A stretch of 35,535 nucleotides of DNA. Origin: Armatimonadota bacterium (GTDB lineage Bacteria > Armatimonadota > JAAZEB01). The notes beneath the pieces were generated by a model that did no database searches, was not told the origin of the DNA, and saw only the letters and a program-made list of their open reading frames with translations. How positions within the stretch are numbered: the first letter of the stretch is position 1; each line of letters starts with the position of its first letter. Location of the stretch: positions 1 through 35,535 of the forward strand of contig JAAZEB010000123.1 of the NCBI GenBank assembly GCA_012512505.1. Direction: 5' to 3'. This document shows positions 1-33,869 of the stretch, piece by piece. The translations under genes and the position numbers were made by a program.

Positions 1-625
1 CAGGCATGCACGCCCTCCGACTGCTTGTAGGCACACGGTTTCAGGTTCTATTTCACTCCCCTTCCGGGGTGCTTTTCACCTTTCCCTCACGGTACTGTGT
101 GCGCTATCGGTCGCCAGGAGTATTCAGCCTTACGAGGTGGTACTCGCAGATTCACACAGGGGCTCCCGTCCCCCGTGCTACTTGGGGTGAAGAGAACACA
201 GCGCGGCCCGGCTTTCGCTTACGGGGCTGTCACCCGCTGTGGCGCCCCTTCCCAGGGGACTTCAGCTAACCGGCGCCGACACCCCACGGCAGAGCCGTAG
301 CTCTGCCTCTCTTTCCCCGCTACCCCCGGGCCTGTGTCTCCACACGGAGACCAGCACCCGGGTTTGGGCTGTTCCCTGTTCGCTCGCCGCTACTAGGGGA
401 ATCGCGGTTGCTTTCTTCTCCTCGGGTTACTAGGATGTTTCCGTTCGCCCGGTTCCCTCGGGAGGCGAACCTCCCGTAAGACGGCATGACCCGTCTTGGG
501 TTTCCCCATTCGGACACCCCCGGATAACAGCCTGCCACCGGCTCCCCGGGGACTTTCGCGGGGTGGCCGCGTCCTTCATCGGCTCTGGCGCCCAGGCATC
601 CACCATACGCCCTTGGTGAACATGA
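1..625 (-). rRNA. rrl: 23S ribosomal RNA, 5' part (cut by window start)
   Basis: Read on the minus strand, this is the first ~625 nt of 23S rRNA (domain I). Recognisable blocks are GGTGGATGCC near the 5' end, CCGAATGGGGAAACCC, GTAGCGGCGAGCGAA, and the run ACCGTGAGGGAAAGGTGAAA. The molecule continues beyond position 1. It is somewhat divergent: the usual GCGAACCAGTACCGTGAGG reads GCGCACACAGTACCG here, and the helix normally GGGAG/CTCCC reads GCGAG/CTCGT, which keeps pairing. The 5' end at about 625 is estimated from alignment to known 23S starts and may be off by 10 nt. It lies downstream of the 16S in the same transcription direction, separated by a ~145-bp spacer. Confidence 0.95.
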
Positions 626-641
626 TTCGGCAGAAACTCTC

Positions 642-660
642 TTCGGTTGTCAAGGTGCGG
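642..660 (-). promoter_or_regulatory. boxA-like antitermination site in 16S-23S spacer
   Basis: On the minus strand this reads CCGCACCTTGACAACCGAA, close to bacterial rRNA boxA (TGCTCTTTGACAACTGAA type). An almost identical copy lies in the 16S leader at 2582-2600. BoxA in both leader and spacer is the known arrangement for Nus-factor antitermination. No tRNA gene is seen in the 145-bp spacer. Confidence 0.6.
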
Positions 661-725
661 CACCCCCCGGCGAGAGCGGGCACGCTGGCCCGTTCCCACC
701 TGGAACACGGCGGGCAACGCCCGCG

Positions 726-757
726 CTGAACAGATGCGTGCCGGCGAAACCGTCAGG
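726..757 (-). other. 16S processing stem, 3' strand
   Basis: This segment is complementary to 2554-2585 in the 16S leader over about 32 nt with only about three imperfections: the outer part CTGAACAGATG is shared exactly, then CGTGCCG and CGAAAC. In the transcript the two strands would form a long stem enclosing the whole 16S, the standard substrate for RNase III-type pre-rRNA processing. The spacer lies between this element and the 23S start. Confidence 0.8.
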
Positions 758-770
758 CCCTCCGTCCTCT

Positions 771-2525
771 TGGGATCAAGGATCACTGCCGCACCTACCG
801 GTACGGCCTCTTTGCCCCACCTTCAACCGCCTCGTCAGAGCCCTGCCTGGGCGCCGGTGCTCCGGGAGAACCCCCGGATCCTGGCGACTTCAGCCGGGCC
901 CACCTGGGCGGAAGTGGTTGGCAATGTGAACGGTGCCTGGGAACGTATTCACCGCGACATCGCTGATCCGCGGTTACTAGCGACTTCAGGCTTCATGCAG
1001 TCGGGTTGCAGACTGCAATCCGAACCGGGGCCCGTTTTTTGGGGTTACCTCCGCCTCGCGGCTTCGGCACTCTTTGTACGGGCCACTGTAGCACGTGTGC
1101 AGCCCAGAGCATAAGGGGCGTACCGACTTGACCTCATCCCCACCTTCCTCCAATGGCCCGGATATCCCACAGCCAGGACCACGGCGGTTCCTGGTGAGTG
1201 CCCGGCGCACCTCCACAGCCTTTCGGCGGCGGAGATACCCGCTGGCAACACCAGGCAGGGGTTTCGCCCGTTTTGGGAGTGAACCCAACGCCTCACGGCA
1301 CGGGCTGACGACAGCCACTCGCCACCTGTGCCCCGGCCGGCACCCGAAGGTGCCGGAGCCCCGGTTTCCCGGGGGGTCCGAGACATGTCAAGCCCTGGTA
1401 AGGTTCTCGGGAACCTAGTCCGATTAAGCCACGTGCTCGGCCGCTTGTGCAGGCACTCGCCAATTCCCTTGATTTTCAGCCTTGCGGCCGTACTCCTCAG
1501 GCGGGACACTCTGCGCGCGAGCTGCGTCCTGGAAAGGTAAGCCGACAACCCAGCACTCTGCTTCTGCAGAGTACCCTAACGGGCTGCCGGGGCCTCCCGG
1601 GACTAGTGTCCATCTTTTACGGCCAGGACTACCCGGGTACCTAATCCGGTTTGCTCCCCTGGCTTTCGCGCAGTCAGCGTCAGGGCCAGTCCAGAGAGCT
1701 GCCTTCGCCTTCGGTGTTCCTCCCGGTATCAACGCATTTCACCGCTCCTCCGGGAATTCCGCTCTCCTCTGCTGCCCTCTAGTGGCGTGGTATCGCCGGC
1801 ACGGCCCTCCGGTTAAGCCGGAAGCTTTGACCGGCGACGGACACCACCGCCTATGCGCCCTTTGCGCCCAATGAGAGTGGACAACGCTTGCACCCTACGT
1901 CTCAACGCGGCTGCTGGCACGTAGTTGGCCGGTGCTTTCTCGGGCGGTACCGTCAGAGCCGGCGCCAAGGCCGGCCGTTCTTCCCGCTCGAACAAGGGTT
2001 TACAACGGGCCGCAGCCCGCCTTCTTCCCCCACGCGGCGTCGCTGCGTCAGGGTTGCCCCCATTGCGCAAGATTCCCCACTGCTGCCACCTACGCCGCCC
2101 GCGTCGCGTCTGACCGGTTCCAGTCCCCCGTCAGACGGGACAGAGTCGGCTTCGGTGCCGGGCCCGTGTCTCAGTGCCCGTCTGGCTGGCCGTCCTCCCA
2201 GACCAGCTACCCGTCGTCGGCTTGGTGGGCCGTTACCCCGCCAACTACCTGATAGGACGCGGGCCCCTCCGGAAGCGAGCCTCAGCCCTTTGGGCCACCC
2301 CCATGCGAGAGTGGACCATACGGCGGATTACCCCTCCTTTCGGAAGGCTGTCCGCCTCTTCCGGGTAGGTTGCCCACGCGTTACTCAGCCGTTCGCCGCT
2401 GACAAGCCGCAGGCATCGTCGGGTAACACCTTACCCAAGAACACCTCGCGGCCTGTTCGCTCGACTTGCATGTGTCAGGCACGCCGCCAGCGTTCGTCCG
2501 GGGCCGGGATCATGCCCATCATGAT
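771..2525 (-). rRNA. rrs: 16S ribosomal RNA, highly divergent and enlarged
   Basis: Minus-strand 16S, recognised by GACGAACGCTGGCGGCGTGC, GTGCCAGCAGCCGCG, GGTGAAATGCG, GGAGGAAGGTGGGGATGA and GGTGAATACGTTCCC. It is about 1.75 kb, roughly 200 nt longer than usual. Extra length is visible in h13 (a ~60-nt insert near 2092-2160), in the loop before GGAGGAAGG near 1155-1190, and in h44. Many near-universal bases differ (E. coli numbering): G530 is U, A532 is G, A792 is G, C1399 and C1400 are U, 1498-1500 read GGG, and the h45 tetraloop GGAA is GGTA. The 3' tail reads GTGATCCTTGATCC with no CCTCC. Many helix changes are compensated on the partner strand. Ends are estimated from alignment and the flanking processing stem. 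It may be a functional variant or a specialised copy; neutral pseudogene decay fits less well. See findings. Confidence 0.93.
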
Positions 2526-2553
2526 GCCGATCCACTCGGCTCTCTTCGTCCTG

Positions 2554-2585
2554 CCTGAAGTTTCGGCGGCACGTCATCTGTTCAG
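2554..2585 (-). other. 16S processing stem, 5' strand
   Basis: Partner of 726-757. In the RNA it begins CTGAACAGATG and ends about 28 nt before the estimated 16S 5' end. Together the two strands would close a stem of about 30 bp around the 16S. Such a long complement across 1.8 kb is not expected by chance and argues that the operon is still maintained. Confidence 0.8.
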
Positions 2586-2600
2586 TTGTCAAGGTGCGCT
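2582..2600 (-). promoter_or_regulatory. boxA-like antitermination site in rRNA leader
   Basis: Minus strand GCGCACCTTGACAACTGA, matching rRNA boxA and repeated in the spacer at 642-660. It sits directly upstream of the 5' processing strand, where a leader boxA is expected. Confidence 0.6.
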
Positions 2601-2614
2601 CCGTGTTCATCCGG

Positions 2615-2642
2615 AGTCTACCATCCCCTGCCAGGGAATAAA
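2615..2642 (-). promoter_or_regulatory. possible rRNA promoter
   Basis: On the minus strand TAGACT (2615-2620) could be a -10 box with TTTATT (2637-2642) 16 bp upstream. The -35 match is poor, so this is a weak candidate. Its position just upstream of the leader boxA is right for an rRNA promoter. Confidence 0.25.
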
Positions 2643-2687
2643 CGCCGAACATTTCTTTGCGCACCATTGGCGCGGCCGGGTGAATCC

Positions 2688-3019: not shown

Positions 3020-4411
3020 TTACTTGCGATCTTCAGCCTGCAGCTTCACCGCCTGGGCCACGCCGCCGATGTACAGGCTATCGTAGGCCTGCTGCGAGCT
3101 CTTGAAGGCGCCGACGCCCTCCAGACCATGCCAGTCGCCCTGATGGTACATCGGGTTCGGCAATCCGGTTTCCCGCTCGCGCTTGGCGATGAACGCCTCC
3201 ATGCGGCCGCGCAGGTAGTCGACCACGTCCGGCAGTTGCTCCGCCAGGTTGACGTTCTCCCCGGGATCGGTGACGAGGTTGTACAGCTCTACCGGCGGCT
3301 TAAAGTGGAAATCCGGCTCCAGGGCCACGATCAGCTTCCACTCCGGGGTGCGCCAGCCATGCTTGCGCATCCAGGTGCACTCGGTGATGTAGAACTCGCT
3401 TTCGTGCGAGGCCACCTCGCCGCGCACCATCCCCATCAGGCTGCGCCCGTCAAAGCGATCCGGCACCTCGATCTCGGCCAGCTCCAGCAGCGTCGGCACC
3501 AGGTCCTTGTGCTGGGTGTAGCCGGCAAGGCGCTTGCCGGCGGGAATCTTCGCCGGGTAGCGGAGGATCAGCGGCACGTGCAGCGTCACGTCGTAGATGC
3601 CGTGGTGGTCAAACCAGCACTCGTGGTCGTAGAGCGTCTCGCCGTGGTCGGAGTTGATGACCACGATCGTGTCGTCGAGGATGCCCCGGGTTTCCAGGGC
3701 GGTGAAGATCGCCTGGATGCAGGCATCCATGTAGGCGATGGCGCCGTCGTACTGGGCGATCACGTAGTCTTTATCGGTGATGCCCTTGGGCATCCAGCTC
3801 TCAAAGTAGTCCCAGAACGGCTTGAACGCCCTGACGGGATCCATCGAGCGGTTGGCCGGGTCGCACTCGTTGCCGTGGTAGAAGAGGCGCTCGTAGGGGT
3901 CCGGGGGCAAGTAGGGCGTGTGCGGGTCCATGTGCCGGAGCATGAGGAAGAACGGCTCCTTCTGGCTGGCCAGCCGTTCCAGCTCAGGGATGGCAACCTT
4001 GTTCAGGTTTCCCGCCTTGGGGCTGCGCCCGGTCTCATCCGCTCCCCAGCCGGGGTAGTCGAGGTAAGTGTCGAACCCGCGGGAGGCGGGGTTGCCGGTG
4101 AAGCCGACGCAAGTGGTGTTGTAGCCGGCCTCACGCAGAATCTCGGCGAGGGTGCGCACGCCTGGCCGCATCGAGCCGCGGTGCCGCAGCGCCACGACCT
4201 GGGTGCCGAAGCAGTCCATGCCGGTCAGCATGCTGCCGTAGCCGCTGGTGGTCGGCACGTGCGGGCAGTAGTTGCGCTCGAACAGGGTGCCCCCCTGGGC
4301 AAACCGGTCGATGTGCGGCGTGGTGAGCCGGTGGTAGCCGTAACAGCTCATGTGGTCGGCAAGCAGGGAGTCAATCCCGATCAACAGGATGTTGGGCCTG
4401 CGCGTGGTCAT
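3020..4411 (-). CDS. Sulfatase-superfamily hydrolase with a Thr at the nucleophile position
   Basis: 463 aa, alkaline phosphatase/sulfatase fold. The metal site is formed by D14 in the N-terminal LLIGIDS strand and by the NSDHGE motif in the middle of the protein. Where classical sulfatases have P-x-C/S-x-P-x-R, this protein reads PTTSGYGSMLTG (residues 53-64), so Thr55 takes the place of the Cys/Ser that becomes formylglycine, and the Pro and Arg are missing. Thr nucleophiles occur in other members of this superfamily, such as phosphodiesterases and phosphomutases, so a phospho-substrate is as likely as a sulfate ester. No signal peptide is visible; it is probably cytoplasmic. The start is supported by a GAGGAG site; an 11-bp tandem duplication (GGAGACAACGA) there places two such sites in front of the ATG. 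It reads towards the rRNA operon. Confidence 0.88.
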   Translation of the reverse strand: MTTRRPNILLIGIDSLLADHMSCYGYHRLTTPHIDRFAQGGTLFERNYCPHVPTTSGYGSMLTGMDCFGTQVVALRHRGSMRPGVRTLAEILREAGYNTTCVGFTGNPASRGFDTYLDYPGWGADETGRSPKAGNLNKVAIPELERLASQKEPFFLMLRHMDPHTPYLPPDPYERLFYHGNECDPANRSMDPVRAFKPFWDYFESWMPKGITDKDYVIAQYDGAIAYMDACIQAIFTALETRGILDDTIVVINSDHGETLYDHECWFDHHGIYDVTLHVPLILRYPAKIPAGKRLAGYTQHKDLVPTLLELAEIEVPDRFDGRSLMGMVRGEVASHESEFYITECTWMRKHGWRTPEWKLIVALEPDFHFKPPVELYNLVTDPGENVNLAEQLPDVVDYLRGRMEAFIAKRERETGLPNPMYHQGDWHGLEGVGAFKSSQQAYDSLYIGGVAQAVKLQAEDRK

Positions 4412-4563
4412 CGTTGTCTCCTCGTTGTCTCCTCCGGGTGGTCATTCGGTGCTCCGATCTTCGCCGACTACCGCGCGTCTCCTGCCACCACCCGGAACGC
4501 GCGCGGGCGGGCGCTCCGGTTGCGGATCCTTTGCCCGACTGCCTGTCCGTGGCCGCGGCATTG

Positions 4564-4572
4564 TGCTATAAT
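4564..4572 (+). promoter_or_regulatory. Extended -10 promoter for prfC
   Basis: TGC-TATAAT is an extended -10 box with a perfect hexamer; no good -35 is seen, as is common for extended -10 promoters. Transcription would start near 4579, right at an 8-bp hairpin (GGCATGGC, 4579-4586, with GCCATGCC, 4592-4599). It lies in the divergent gap between the sulfatase-like gene and prfC. Confidence 0.65.
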
Positions 4573-4619
4573 AAGATGGGCATGGCACGGGGCCATGCCT
4601 ATTTCGCTGTACTGGAGGA

Positions 4620-4646
4620 ATGACCGCCGCGCATGGCGGTAGCTAA
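4620..4646 (+). other. Possible leader mini-ORF in frame with prfC
   Basis: Eight sense codons (MTAAHGGS) followed by TAA. The mini-ORF is in frame with prfC and ends 9 nt before its ATG. The only GGAGG near prfC (4614-4618) lies before this mini-ORF, though only 1 nt from its ATG, which is closer than normal. The segment can fold (ACCGCC with GGCGGT). Translation is unproven; the sites may instead be coincidental. Confidence 0.3.
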
Positions 4647-4655
4647 TCGCACACG

Positions 4656-6269
4656 ATGGAACAGACGCTGACAAGTCAGGTGGCCCGAGAGGTTCAACGG
4701 CGGCGCACCTTCGCCATCATCTCTCACCCAGACGCGGGAAAGACAACGCTCACCGAGAAGCTGTTGCTCTACGCCGGCGCGGTGCGCCTCGCCGGCTCCG
4801 TGCGCACCCGCAAGGGGCAGCGCCACGCCACCTCCGATTGGATGGAGATGGAGCAGGAGCGCGGCATCTCGATCACTTCGGCGGTGATGCAGTTCGACTA
4901 CCGCGACTACCACATCAACCTGCTCGACACTCCCGGCCACCAGGACTTCAGTGAGGACACCTACCGCGTGCTCACCGCCGTTGACAACGCGGTGATGGTG
5001 ATCGACAGCGCCAACGGCGTGGAGTCGCAAACGCGCAAGCTGTTCGAGGTCTGCCAGCGCCGCCGCACCCCGGTCTTTACCTTGATCAACAAGGTAGACC
5101 GCCCCGGCAAGGAGCCGCTGGAGTTGCTGGGCGAGATTGAGGACGTGCTCGGCATCGCCACCGTGCCGATGAACTGGCCGGTGCGCTCGATGCTGGGCGC
5201 CGTGGTGGGCATCTACGACTTGCAGCAGCGCCAGGTTCACCTCTTCGAGCGCGCGGAGCACGGCAGCCAGCGCGCCCCGGTGCAGGTCACCGATCTGCAC
5301 GACCCGGTGCTGGCCGAGCTGCTGGAACCCCAGGCGCTGGCGCAGCTTCGCGACGAAGTGGAGCTGTTGGAGGCGGCGGGCGACGCGCTAGACCGCGACC
5401 GCGTCCAGAGCGGCGAGCTCACCCCGGTCTACTTCGCCAGCGCCCTGCTCAACTTCGGCGTGCAGCTTTTCCTCGACAGCTTCCTCGACCTGGCGGTCGG
5501 GCCGGTGGCCCGCAAGGCGCAGCAGGGCCTGGTGCGCCCCGAGCACCCCCACTTCAGCGGCTTCGTCTTCAAGCTGCAGGCAAACATGGATCGGCGCCAC
5601 CGCGACCGACTGGCGTTCGTGCGCGTTTGCTCCGGGCGCTTCGAGCGCGACATGGTCGTCAACCACGTCCGCACCGGCAAGAAGCTGCGCCTGACACGCT
5701 CGCTAAAGCTGTTTGCCCAGGAACGCGAATCGGTGGATGAGGCCTACCCCGGCGACATCGTCGGGTTGATCAACCCGGGGATGCTCGCCATCGGCGATAC
5801 GCTGTGCAGCAGCGAGCGGGTGGAGTTCGATGAGATCCCCCGCTTCCCGCCGGAGCACTTTGCCACCCTCTCTCTCCCGGAGACGGACCAGCGCAAGGCG
5901 CTGGCCAAGGGGCTGGATCAGCTCTGCGAGGAGGGCCTGGTGCAGGTCTTCTACCCCGTCGGCGACGTGATGCGCCAGCCGATCCTGGCCGCCGTCGGTC
6001 CCCTGCAGTTCGACGTGCTGACCGACCGCCTGGAGAACGAGTACAACGTGCAGGCGCGCGTGGAGAGGCTGCCGTACGAGCACGCTCGCTGGCTGGAAGG
6101 CACCGCCGCGGCGATCGCCGCGATGCGCTGTCCGCCCGGCTGCGCGCGCGTGCTGGACCCTGAAGAGCGGCCGGTGCTCCTGCTCCCTGACGATTGGTCG
6201 GTGCGCTACACCACGGAGAAGAACCCGGAGGTCACCCTCCACCGCATGCCGCCCAAGGCGAACGACTAA
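4656..6269 (+). CDS. prfC: Peptide chain release factor 3 (GTPase)
   Basis: 537 aa, full length for RF3, the translational GTPase that removes RF1/RF2 from the ribosome after peptide release. Visible motifs are G1 SHPDAGKTT (residues 23-31), the switch I segment RGISITS, G3 DTPGH (~92), and G4 NKVD (~145), followed by EF-Tu-like domain II and the RF3 C-terminal domain. The ATG at 4656 has no Shine-Dalgarno directly before it. It follows a possible in-frame mini-ORF and an extended -10 promoter. Its stop codon overlaps the convergent nikR stop by 4 bp. Confidence 0.96.
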   Translation: MEQTLTSQVAREVQRRRTFAIISHPDAGKTTLTEKLLLYAGAVRLAGSVRTRKGQRHATSDWMEMEQERGISITSAVMQFDYRDYHINLLDTPGHQDFSEDTYRVLTAVDNAVMVIDSANGVESQTRKLFEVCQRRRTPVFTLINKVDRPGKEPLELLGEIEDVLGIATVPMNWPVRSMLGAVVGIYDLQQRQVHLFERAEHGSQRAPVQVTDLHDPVLAELLEPQALAQLRDEVELLEAAGDALDRDRVQSGELTPVYFASALLNFGVQLFLDSFLDLAVGPVARKAQQGLVRPEHPHFSGFVFKLQANMDRRHRDRLAFVRVCSGRFERDMVVNHVRTGKKLRLTRSLKLFAQERESVDEAYPGDIVGLINPGMLAIGDTLCSSERVEFDEIPRFPPEHFATLSLPETDQRKALAKGLDQLCEEGLVQVFYPVGDVMRQPILAAVGPLQFDVLTDRLENEYNVQARVERLPYEHARWLEGTAAAIAAMRCPPGCARVLDPEERPVLLLPDDWSVRYTTEKNPEVTLHRMPPKAND

Positions 6270-6685
6270 CCGAGGTCGCGGCCGGTGGTGGTGCAGGTCA
6301 GCTTGCCGTGCTTCACGCCGCGGGTGCGGATCATGTGGTCTGCCACGTGGTGCACCACCGAGGCCGGGCCGCGCACCACCACCACCTCCAGGCAGTGGTG
6401 CGCGTCGAGGTGAACGTGCAGCGTGGAGATGATCGCCGGGTGGTAGTGGTGCTGCACCTCGGTGAGGTGCCCGCGTAAGTCGCGCTCCCGGTGGTCGTAG
6501 ACGACGGTGATCGTGCCGATCACCTCCGTCTCGTCCGACTCCCATTCCTGCTCCACCAGGAAATCGCGCACGATGTCGCGGATCGCCTCGGAGCGGTTGG
6601 AGTATCCCCGAGCGGTGATCGCCTCGTCAAATCGTTTCAGGAGGTCGGGGGCCATCGAGACCCCGAAGCGCTCAACGCCGTTCAT
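6266..6685 (-). CDS. nikR: Nickel-responsive transcriptional regulator NikR
   Basis: 139 aa, typical NikR length. The N-terminal ribbon-helix-helix (VERFGVSMAPDLLKRFD, residues ~4-20, and the SNRSEAIRDIVRDFL helix) binds DNA; the C-terminal ACT-like domain binds nickel. The four nickel ligands of E. coli NikR (H76, H87, H89, C95) have counterparts with identical spacing: H79, H90, H92, C98. It is therefore predicted to repress nickel uptake when nickel is plentiful. No nickel transporter or nickel enzyme gene lies nearby. It is convergent with prfC (4-bp overlap). A dispersed ~80-bp repeat copy lies just upstream of its start. Confidence 0.95.
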   Translation of the reverse strand: MNGVERFGVSMAPDLLKRFDEAITARGYSNRSEAIRDIVRDFLVEQEWESDETEVIGTITVVYDHRERDLRGHLTEVQHHYHPAIISTLHVHLDAHHCLEVVVVRGPASVVHHVADHMIRTRGVKHGKLTCTTTGRDLG

Positions 6686-32324: not shown

Positions 32325-33869
32325 ATGGGCCCGGACCTTTTGACGCCTGTCCTACTGGTCATCGCCCTGATCCTCATTGGCGCCGCCGCGCTGCAATACT
32401 ACTACTCGAAAGTGCTATTCAACCTGCGCGTCAAGGAGCGGGAGGTAGCACGCCTGCTGGAAGAGGCGGAGGAGCAGAAAGAGGCAAAGAAACGGGAGGC
32501 GTTGGTGGAGGCGCGCGAGGAGATACAGCGCCTCCGCGCCGAGGCGGAGCGTGAGATCCGCGAGCGCCGCGCTGAACTGCAGCGCACCGAGCGCCGGCTG
32601 GCTCAGCGCGACGAGAACCTCGAACGCCGTCAGGCCGCCCTGGAGCGCCGCGAGCGCCAGATCACCCTGCGCGAGCAGGAAACCGGCCGGCTGCGCGACC
32701 AGGCCAGCGAATTAGTGGAGCAGCGCCGCCAGGAGCTGGAGCGCGTCGCTCAGCTTCCCGCCGAGGAAGCACGCCAGATGGTGCTGCGCCGCGTCGAGGA
32801 AGAGTGCCGCCTCGATGCCGCCCGCATCGTCAAGGCGGTGGAAACCGAGGCGCAGGAAGAAGCCGAACAACGCGCCCGCAAAATCATCACCCTCGCCATC
32901 CAAAAGTGCGCCGTCGATCAGACCGCCGAGACCACCGTCTCCGTGGTCGCCCTCCCCAACGACGACATGAAAGGGCGGATCATCGGCCGCGAGGGCCGCA
33001 ACATCCGCGCCTTCGAGACCCTCACCGGCGTCGACCTGATCATCGACGACACCCCCGAGGCGGTAGTGGTCTCCGCCTTCGACGTGGTGCGCCGGGAGAT
33101 CGCCCGCCTGGCCCTGGAGAACCTAGTGGTGGATGGTCGCATCCACCCCTCGCGCATCGAGGAGATGGTGCAGAAGGCGCGCGCCCAGGTGGAGCAGGAG
33201 ATTAAGACCGCCGGCGAGCGCGCCGTGCTCGATGTGGGCCTCTCCGGCGTCGACCCGGAGCTGGTGAAGATCCTGGGCCGACTGCGCTATCGCACCAGCT
33301 ACGGCCAGAACGTGCTGAAGCACTCGGTGGAGGTGGCCTACCTGGCCGCGGGCATCGCCTCCGAGCTGGGGCTGGACCCACTGATCGCCAAGCGCGCCGG
33401 CCTCTTCCACGACCTCGGCAAGGCGGTCGATTTCGAGACCGATGGTCCCCACGCGGTGATCGGTGCGGAGATCGCCCGCCGCCACGGCGAATCGGCCGAT
33501 GTCGTTCACGCCATCGGCGCGCACCACGCCGATATGGAGCAGGAGAGCGTCTACGCCGTGCTCATCCAGGCGGCCGATGCCATCTCCGCGGCCCGCCCCG
33601 GCGCCCGCCGCGAGAGCCTCGAAACCTACATCAAGCGCCTGGAAACCCTGGAGAAGCTGGGCGACTCCTTCGAGGGCGTGGAGAAGACCTACGCCATCCA
33701 GGCCGGCCGCGAGATTCGCGTGATGGTCAAGCCGGATCGGGTGAGCGACGATGCCGCCGCCAAGCTGGCGCGCGACATCGTCAAGCGCATCGAAAGCGAG
33801 TTGGAGTACCCCGGCCAGATCAAGGTGACCGTGATCCGGGAAACCCGTATGGTCGATTATGCCCGCTGA
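32325..33869 (+). CDS. rny: Ribonuclease Y
   Basis: 514 aa, full length. Order: one N-terminal membrane segment (residues ~7-25), a long coiled coil rich in E, R and A (~35-175), a KH RNA-binding domain ([16 protein letters not shown], ~214), and an HD catalytic domain (FHDLGKAVD, ~361). RNase Y is a membrane-anchored endonuclease that starts mRNA decay in bacteria lacking RNase E. AGGAGA lies 6 nt before the ATG. It follows recX by 221 bp; that gap shows no clear feature. Confidence 0.97.

Follow-up and report, generated by a model that had tools for sequence, protein, structure and literature searches.

The question raised by this locus is what a bacterium does with a 16S rRNA that lacks the anti-Shine-Dalgarno (anti-SD) sequence. 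The window, meaning the whole stretch of 35,535 nucleotides that was analysed, is the entire contig C18 of G000, a metagenome-assembled genome (MAG) of an Armatimonadota bacterium, and starts inside a 23S gene. The initial annotation had described a 16S tail without anti-SD and an altered KsgA loop in a stretch whose genes carry strong SD sites, and a rereading of the letters bears out these observations. The tail reads GTGATCCTTGATCC, with CCTCC absent ahead of the processing stem; at 771..787 on the minus strand it is AGTGATCCTTGATCCCA by direct reading and comparison with relatives. The sequence after h45 is AGTGATCCTTGATCCCAAG (787-769, minus strand), and the UCCUU left in it could pair with AAGGA. 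The normal tail, GGATCACCTCC, is present in 21 of 22 normal Armatimonadota 16S genes, the other being masked by N there. Helix h45 (788..807, minus strand; direct reading and position table) is GCCGTACC-GGTA-GGTGCGGC, an intact 8-bp stem with a GGTA loop at 799-796 in place of GGAA. Strong SD sites, AAGGAGG, GGAGGAG and GAGGAGGAG, precede ATGs at about 21338, 20358 and 24579. As the alignments described below indicate, the tail and the KsgA loop are just a small part of a radically divergent 16S/23S pair.

The divergent 16S gene spans 775..2525 on the minus strand (1751 nt, with several expanded helices) and matches Rfam RF00177 at full length with 1101 bits, a score that for most relatives lies at about 1400-1570. 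It is altered at 78 of the 666 positions (12%) that are invariant over 21 normal 16S genes. The changes lie in the 530 loop, the 900 region, 1054, 1394-1408, 1495-1506 and the tail, and invariant sites are altered in h34 as well. Reading and alignment on the minus strand give GCCGCGUUGAGACG for the normal GCCGCGGUAAUACG in the 530 loop (1891..1920), GUUCACAUUGCCAACCAC for GUACACACCGCCCGUCAC in the 1400 strand of the decoding and P site (914..931), and GAAGGTGGGGCAAAGAG for GAAGUCGUAACAAGGU in the 1490-1505 strand (808..830).

A 147-nt spacer without tRNA genes (628..774, minus strand) separates this gene from the 5' part of a divergent 23S (1..627, minus strand; RF02541 model 1-595), within which the contig ends. 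The 3' part of this 23S is on contig C302 (RF02541 model 1359-2925). The C18 stretch ahead of the 23S (GACAACCGAAGAGAGT) is complementary to the C302 stretch right after it (ACTCTCTTCGGTTGTC), as expected of one processing stem, and so both contigs belong to one operon. The 5' arm of this 23S stem is at 631..651 (GACAACCGAAGAGAGTTTCTG, minus strand). For the 16S, duplex prediction places a leader box (CCTTGACAA) and the 5' arm of the processing stem (TGAACAGATGACGTGCCGCCGAAACTTCAGGC) at 2552..2594, and the 3' arm (GCCTGACGGTTTCGCCGGCACGCATCTGTTCA) at 727..758, all on the minus strand. RNase III-type stems are predicted in G000, G001 and G129, and each is stronger than all 200 shuffles. The divergent 23S is altered in the P-loop, A-loop G2553, H69, 2059, 2062, 2447-2453, 2503 and 2506, and mostly retains the GTPase centre and the sarcin-ricin loop (SRL). 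At 2447-2453 it has AAUACAGGG or AAAACAGGG for GAUAACAGG, an alignment that can slide by one, which makes the changed base ambiguous. Neither tRNA nor 5S genes stand alongside the divergent operons.

The neighbours in the window are ordinary (3020-6685 and 32325-33869): a sulfatase, release factor RF3 (537 aa), a NikR-type regulator and RNase Y. The interval separating the sulfatase gene from the divergent 16S promoter contains two perfect inverted repeats, GGACCAGGGTACCC...GGGTACCCTGGTCC and GGACAGGGTAG...CTACCCTGTCC (2688-2724 and 2773-2804), which may be terminators or regulator sites.

The distribution of such operons in Armatimonadota was followed with an Rfam scan of 151 genomes and a pattern scan of 291. 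Five of the 291 genomes, namely G000 and G001 (family f1) and G055, G106 and G129 (family f5), contain GAAAATCANGGGAATTGG, the pattern common to the divergent 16S genes; the scan needs an exact 18-mer, so more diverged members may escape it. The f1 class comprises three genomes in all, and all five carriers are uncultured MAGs with 2-6% estimated contamination. The same five are among the low-scoring matches of the Rfam scan. Another genome, G024, also scored low and was rejected as a carrier, since it has a normal 3' end and runs of N in the sequence. Full-length small-subunit covariance matches of 1051-1189 bits (RF00177) were obtained in G000, G001, G055 and G129, and large-subunit matches of 2204-2224 bits (RF02541) for the divergent 23S of G001, G129 and G106. 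Against primer 1492R the divergent 16S genes show 6-8 mismatches, and against 515F 2-3, and amplicon surveys would therefore largely miss them.

The divergent genes form one clade with support of 100/100. G000 and G129 are both changed at 47 invariant 16S positions, with the identical new base in 32 of them, and in the 23S of G001 and G129 the new base is identical at 63 of the 100 positions changed in both. Comparison of the five genomes thus shows the divergent operons of f1 and f5 to be homologous, as far as sequence can tell. A viral origin was considered and rejected: the pattern matches three viral contigs, none of which has an rRNA match and two of which are tRNA-rich phages, so these are chance hits. 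(Two phage contigs, L053 and L055, carry dense tRNA arrays of more than 20 tRNA genes within about 13 kb.) A mobile or cassette origin was likewise set aside, as no flanking protein gene is common to G000, G001 and the f5 carriers, the cross-family flank matches being spurious ORFs inside rRNA. Separately, contig C1 of the single-contig genome G089 has two 16S pieces (L044 and L045) flanked by N runs, with stretches masked, one piece reading normally and the other showing unusual letters (GGGAGTAGATACCC, CTCACACAACCGG).

The initial annotation had proposed that a second, normal 16S might exist. This holds for four of the five carriers, which have a normal operon or its 23S-5S end on another contig, and was not seen in the window's own assembly. 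G129 has a normal 16S in two pieces, on contigs C27 and C2; behind the C2 piece come tRNA-Ile, tRNA-Ala, 23S (2836 bits) and 5S, and its divergent operon is on C18. Its normal 16S departs from the phylum-invariant positions at 0 of 666, and the normal and divergent 16S are 71.0% identical, a divergence of 29% within one genome. Normal-type 23S 3' ends followed by 5S are found on other contigs in G001 (on C160), G106 and G055. A search of the G000 assembly for normal rRNA found neither a normal 16S nor a 5S, and the divergent 16S is the sole 16S assembled in G000 and in G001. We infer coexistence with a normal operon in G000 because its sister genome G001, also of family f1, has the normal 23S end and 5S. 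Because a normal operon coexists, it is plausible that the divergent RNAs form a subset of the ribosome-like particles in the carriers. Overall, the comparisons show what reads as an ancient paralogous 16S-23S operon, without spacer tRNAs or 5S, kept beside a normal operon by certain Armatimonadota.

Some normal loci of the phylum have peculiarities of their own. The normal 23S at L066 (G043:C3) is interrupted near E. coli position 1951 by several hundred extra bases that look like an endonuclease-encoding intron. At L064, L065, L067 and L068, blastn at insensitive settings gave no 23S in the roughly 4.5 kb that follow the 16S, which suggests unlinked 16S and 23S genes.

The species pair G106 and G129 is syntenic around the divergent operon, with sharp borders between rRNA and flanks. 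The two genomes differ at 15 of 1344 positions in the divergent 16S (1.12%) and 31 of 3104 in the divergent 23S (1.00%), at 6 of 71 in the spacer (8.45%) and at 383 of 6002 in downstream DNA (6.38%); six flanking genes pooled give a dS of 0.188 and a dN of 0.027. A comparable normal 23S fragment shows 1 difference in 409. With 1.0-1.1% divergence in the rRNAs, 8.5% in the spacer and a dS of 0.19 in the flanking genes, the divergent rRNAs of this one species pair are evidently under strong purifying selection, and they do not evolve at or near the neutral rate of an rRNA pseudogene. Gene conversion by the normal copy was rejected as a cause of the low divergence, the two types being just ~71% identical. 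Secondary structure is maintained through compensatory change. The divergent 16S genes retain 85.4-87.2% of scored E. coli pairs, where most normals retain 90-93%; each full-length divergent copy has 71-76 pairs changed on both sides relative to the normal majority and still paired, and 37 doubly compensated pairs separate G055d from G129d (the suffix d denotes the divergent copy in a genome). The suggestion that the 3' end has decayed is therefore hard to sustain, since divergence, structure and purifying selection extend over the whole 16S and 23S.

The changes are not spread evenly. Among 47 tRNA/mRNA-contact positions of the 16S that are invariant in normals (tail and h45 excluded), 16-18 (34-38%) are changed; over about 590 others the rate is 8-11% (Fisher p about 3e-6 each). 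For tRNA and peptidyl-transferase sites of the 23S the figure is 33-49%, compared with about 13-14% elsewhere (p 1.7e-4 to 4e-12). Invariant contact positions are thus changed about 2-4 times as often as other invariant positions, on lists of contact sites that we chose from general knowledge of ribosome structures. The same bias separates the divergent copies from one another, in the 16S of G055d and G129d (17/47 contact sites against 43/584 others, p 1.5e-7) and in the 23S of G000d and G001d (12/67 against 66/1125, p 8e-4). Between genera of f1, the 16S contact sites change no faster than the rest (2/47 against 22/591).

The anti-SD CCUCC is missing from the 16S 3' end in four different versions of the divergent tail, and universally conserved decoding and peptidyl-transferase residues are replaced. 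C1054A, U1406C/U1495G, A2503U, U2506C and G2553U/A occur in all divergent copies readable there. G530 is lost in f1 and G055; A1492 and A1493 are lost in G129 and G106, A1492 is lost in G055, and both are kept in f1. Of the P-loop, G2251 or G2252 is lost in f1 and both are kept in f5. H69 is altered, and A2602, G2061, C2063, the SRL and most of the GTPase centre are retained. Such a distribution suggests that constraint at the tRNA/mRNA contacts has been relaxed or re-directed, with the scaffold retained. The initial annotation had envisaged specialisation for SD-free or leaderless mRNAs, which as stated finds no support: the changes extend far past the tail and the KsgA loop to the decoding site, the P-, A- and E-site contacts and the peptidyl-transferase centre, and so cast doubt on canonical translation itself.

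How the divergent operon is switched on is suggested by its upstream region. The window has the motif GTTT-N16-TGGTA at 2619..2643 (minus strand), and GTTT-N16-[GT]GG[TC]A lies 47-49 nt upstream of the leader box in G000, G001 and G129; G055 has GTTT-N16-GGAGA with the same spacing about 44 nt upstream of its leader box. This motif resembles the sigma-B consensus. A block search of the four upstream regions reached the motif score in 1 of 500 shuffles. The motif turns up twice in 211 kb of f1 sequence (both strands counted), in agreement with the two operon promoters, and three times in 176 kb of f5 sequence. The normal operon of G129 has a TTGACA-N17-TATATT promoter and a CCTTGACAACTGAA leader box, which the divergent operons share; no standard sigma-70 promoter or terminator was found beside the window operon. 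A SigB/F/G-type factor scores above the curated cut-off in all five carriers, so that the sigma-B-like motif of G000, G001 and G129 is accompanied in each genome by a SigB-type factor. The gene order RsbV-RsbW-SigB is present in G000 and G129 (RsbV and RsbW identified by reading translations), and GTTT-N16-GGGTA, which fits the motif of the divergent operons, stands before the sigB operon in both G000 and G001. The factor does not mark carriers specifically, being present in 116 of 291 phylum genomes, and therefore supports regulation rather than specificity. Control of the divergent operon by a stress sigma factor is on balance probable.

Altogether, the divergent operon is very probably a selected paralogue. 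The best explanation overall, to which we give about even credence, is that it makes a non-canonical, perhaps non-translating ribosome-like particle under stress. Transcription would start from the sigma-B-type stress promoter, RNase III would cut out the rRNAs as it does ordinary rRNA, and the divergent RNAs would still fold and bind ribosomal proteins. Stress would then give rise to a second population of ribosome-like particles, which would probably do without canonical SD-led translation with standard tRNA contacts and might serve, for example, as an inert store of ribosomal proteins or as a decoy for factors, drugs or toxins. That the particle has a non-translating role is a suggestion we put at just short of an even chance. 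The full proposal is more tentative still: a dedicated stress-induced rRNA pair that keeps ribosome-like folding and assembly, may have given up standard tRNA/mRNA interaction, is selected, is either non-translating or working non-canonically, and predates the split of f1 and f5 or spread between them long ago. An extra ribosomal protein as partner was looked for in S12, the only protein checked, and rejected, S12 being single-copy in all carriers.

The main rival is a specialised ribosome that does translate, active on stress-specific mRNAs without canonical SD pairing, in line with the initial annotation's idea of a specialised ribosome and by analogy with the I-ribosomes of Vibrio vulnificus. 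We regard it as possible, with perhaps one chance in three. Purifying selection along the full length, the kept helices, the retained A2602, G2061, C2063, SRL and most of the GTPase centre, and the stress-type promoter motif all accord with it, as does the precedent of rrnI ribosomes in Vibrio (PMC10697612). Between genera of f1, conservation at the 16S contact sites is on a par with that at other positions, which would fit a re-engineered but working decoding site and calls for caution. Against standard translation, G530, A1492/A1493, the P-loop, G2553, U2506 and H69 are lost or vary, in different combinations in the two families, so that universal 16S and 23S residues are not only lost but lost differently between lineages. 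Because the changes are concentrated at tRNA/mRNA contacts, a non-canonical particle is favoured over an SD-free translating ribosome, and we weight the non-canonical or non-translating particle slightly above the specialised translating one. Some of the altered positions coincide with known drug or toxin sites: A1408 (f5), U1406/U1495, A2058 (f5), A2059, A2062 (G000 and f5), A2503, G2505 (f5), U2506, G2661 (f5) and the h45 loop (f1). The operon could then provide a reserve ribosome or decoy resistant to antibiotics or rRNA-cutting toxins. This is unlikely, since drug sites coincide with functional centres and relaxed constraint predicts the same list, and the operon has no conserved resistance-gene or toxin neighbour.

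The remaining readings make the operon either dead, foreign or the only one. An operon decaying into a pseudogene, whether an old duplicate or a transferred copy whose tail and active sites eroded first, would explain the lost universal positions, the somewhat lower pairing (85-87% against 90-93%) and the missing 5S and tRNA; it is strongly disfavoured by the contrast between about 1% in rRNA and 8.5% in the spacer with a dS of 0.19, and by the fact that two families have kept the operon along with compensatory pairs, processing stems and a promoter motif, and we consider it very unlikely. Mis-binned contigs from another organism, or an assembly artefact, are more improbable again. All carriers are MAGs with some estimated contamination, but there are five of them in two families, the contigs are mostly long with ordinary chromosomal genes (CTP synthase and trp genes, by our reading of translations), G106 and G129 are syntenic around the operon, and assembly error cannot produce compensated structure. 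Least probable of all is that this is the sole rRNA of the window's organism, a lineage with changed universal ribosome residues. The divergent 16S is indeed the only one assembled in G000 and G001, but G001 has a normal-type 23S 3' end and 5S on C160, G129 has a normal operon, the window's genes bear canonical SD sites, and multi-copy rRNA is often lost from MAGs.

In the open-access literature (subscription papers and preprints aside) no precedent was found in Armatimonadota, and none of the open-access accounts of Vibrio rrnI, Scytonema, Haloarcula or Thermobispora describes changed universal active-site residues. Vibrio vulnificus rrnI is a second divergent, stress-linked rRNA operon whose ribosomes are reported to translate (PMC10697612); the Armatimonadota operon resembles it in standing beside normal ones and in its stress link, here read from the promoter, and differs in its changed universal decoding and peptidyl-transferase residues and anti-SD, and in being common to two families. 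The Type 1 operon of Scytonema hyalinum also has divergent 16S and 23S with secondary structure retained and normal operons alongside. Its 16S divergence of 7.3-9.0% was stated in 2017 to be the highest without insertions or truncation (PMC5658200), while the Armatimonadota pair reaches 29% in one genome, with functional-site changes and no 5S. Haloarcula marismortui (5.63% divergence; PMC5658200) and Thermobispora bispora (98 SNPs; PMC11883441) likewise carry, within a single genome, rRNA alleles that are linked to conditions or differ strongly (PMC11883441), at far lower divergence. In weak-SD lineages such as Flavobacterium and Bacteroidia, the anti-SD itself is conserved and SD use varies (PMC8710568); initiation there is similarly less dependent on SD pairing, whereas here the anti-SD is lost in a paralogue and the genes keep their SD sites.

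Intragenomic 16S differences in these open-access papers end near 9%, insertions excluded, and the conserved Armatimonadota paralogue stands at 29%. Divergent second rRNA operons are already known, and a selected non-translating ribosome paralogue would be a categorically new kind. In an operon about 30% different from the normal one, residues held to be obligatory in every ribosome are replaced while selection keeps the remainder. Either ribosomes tolerate far more active-site change than has been thought, or bacteria build ribosome-like particles for a purpose other than translation.
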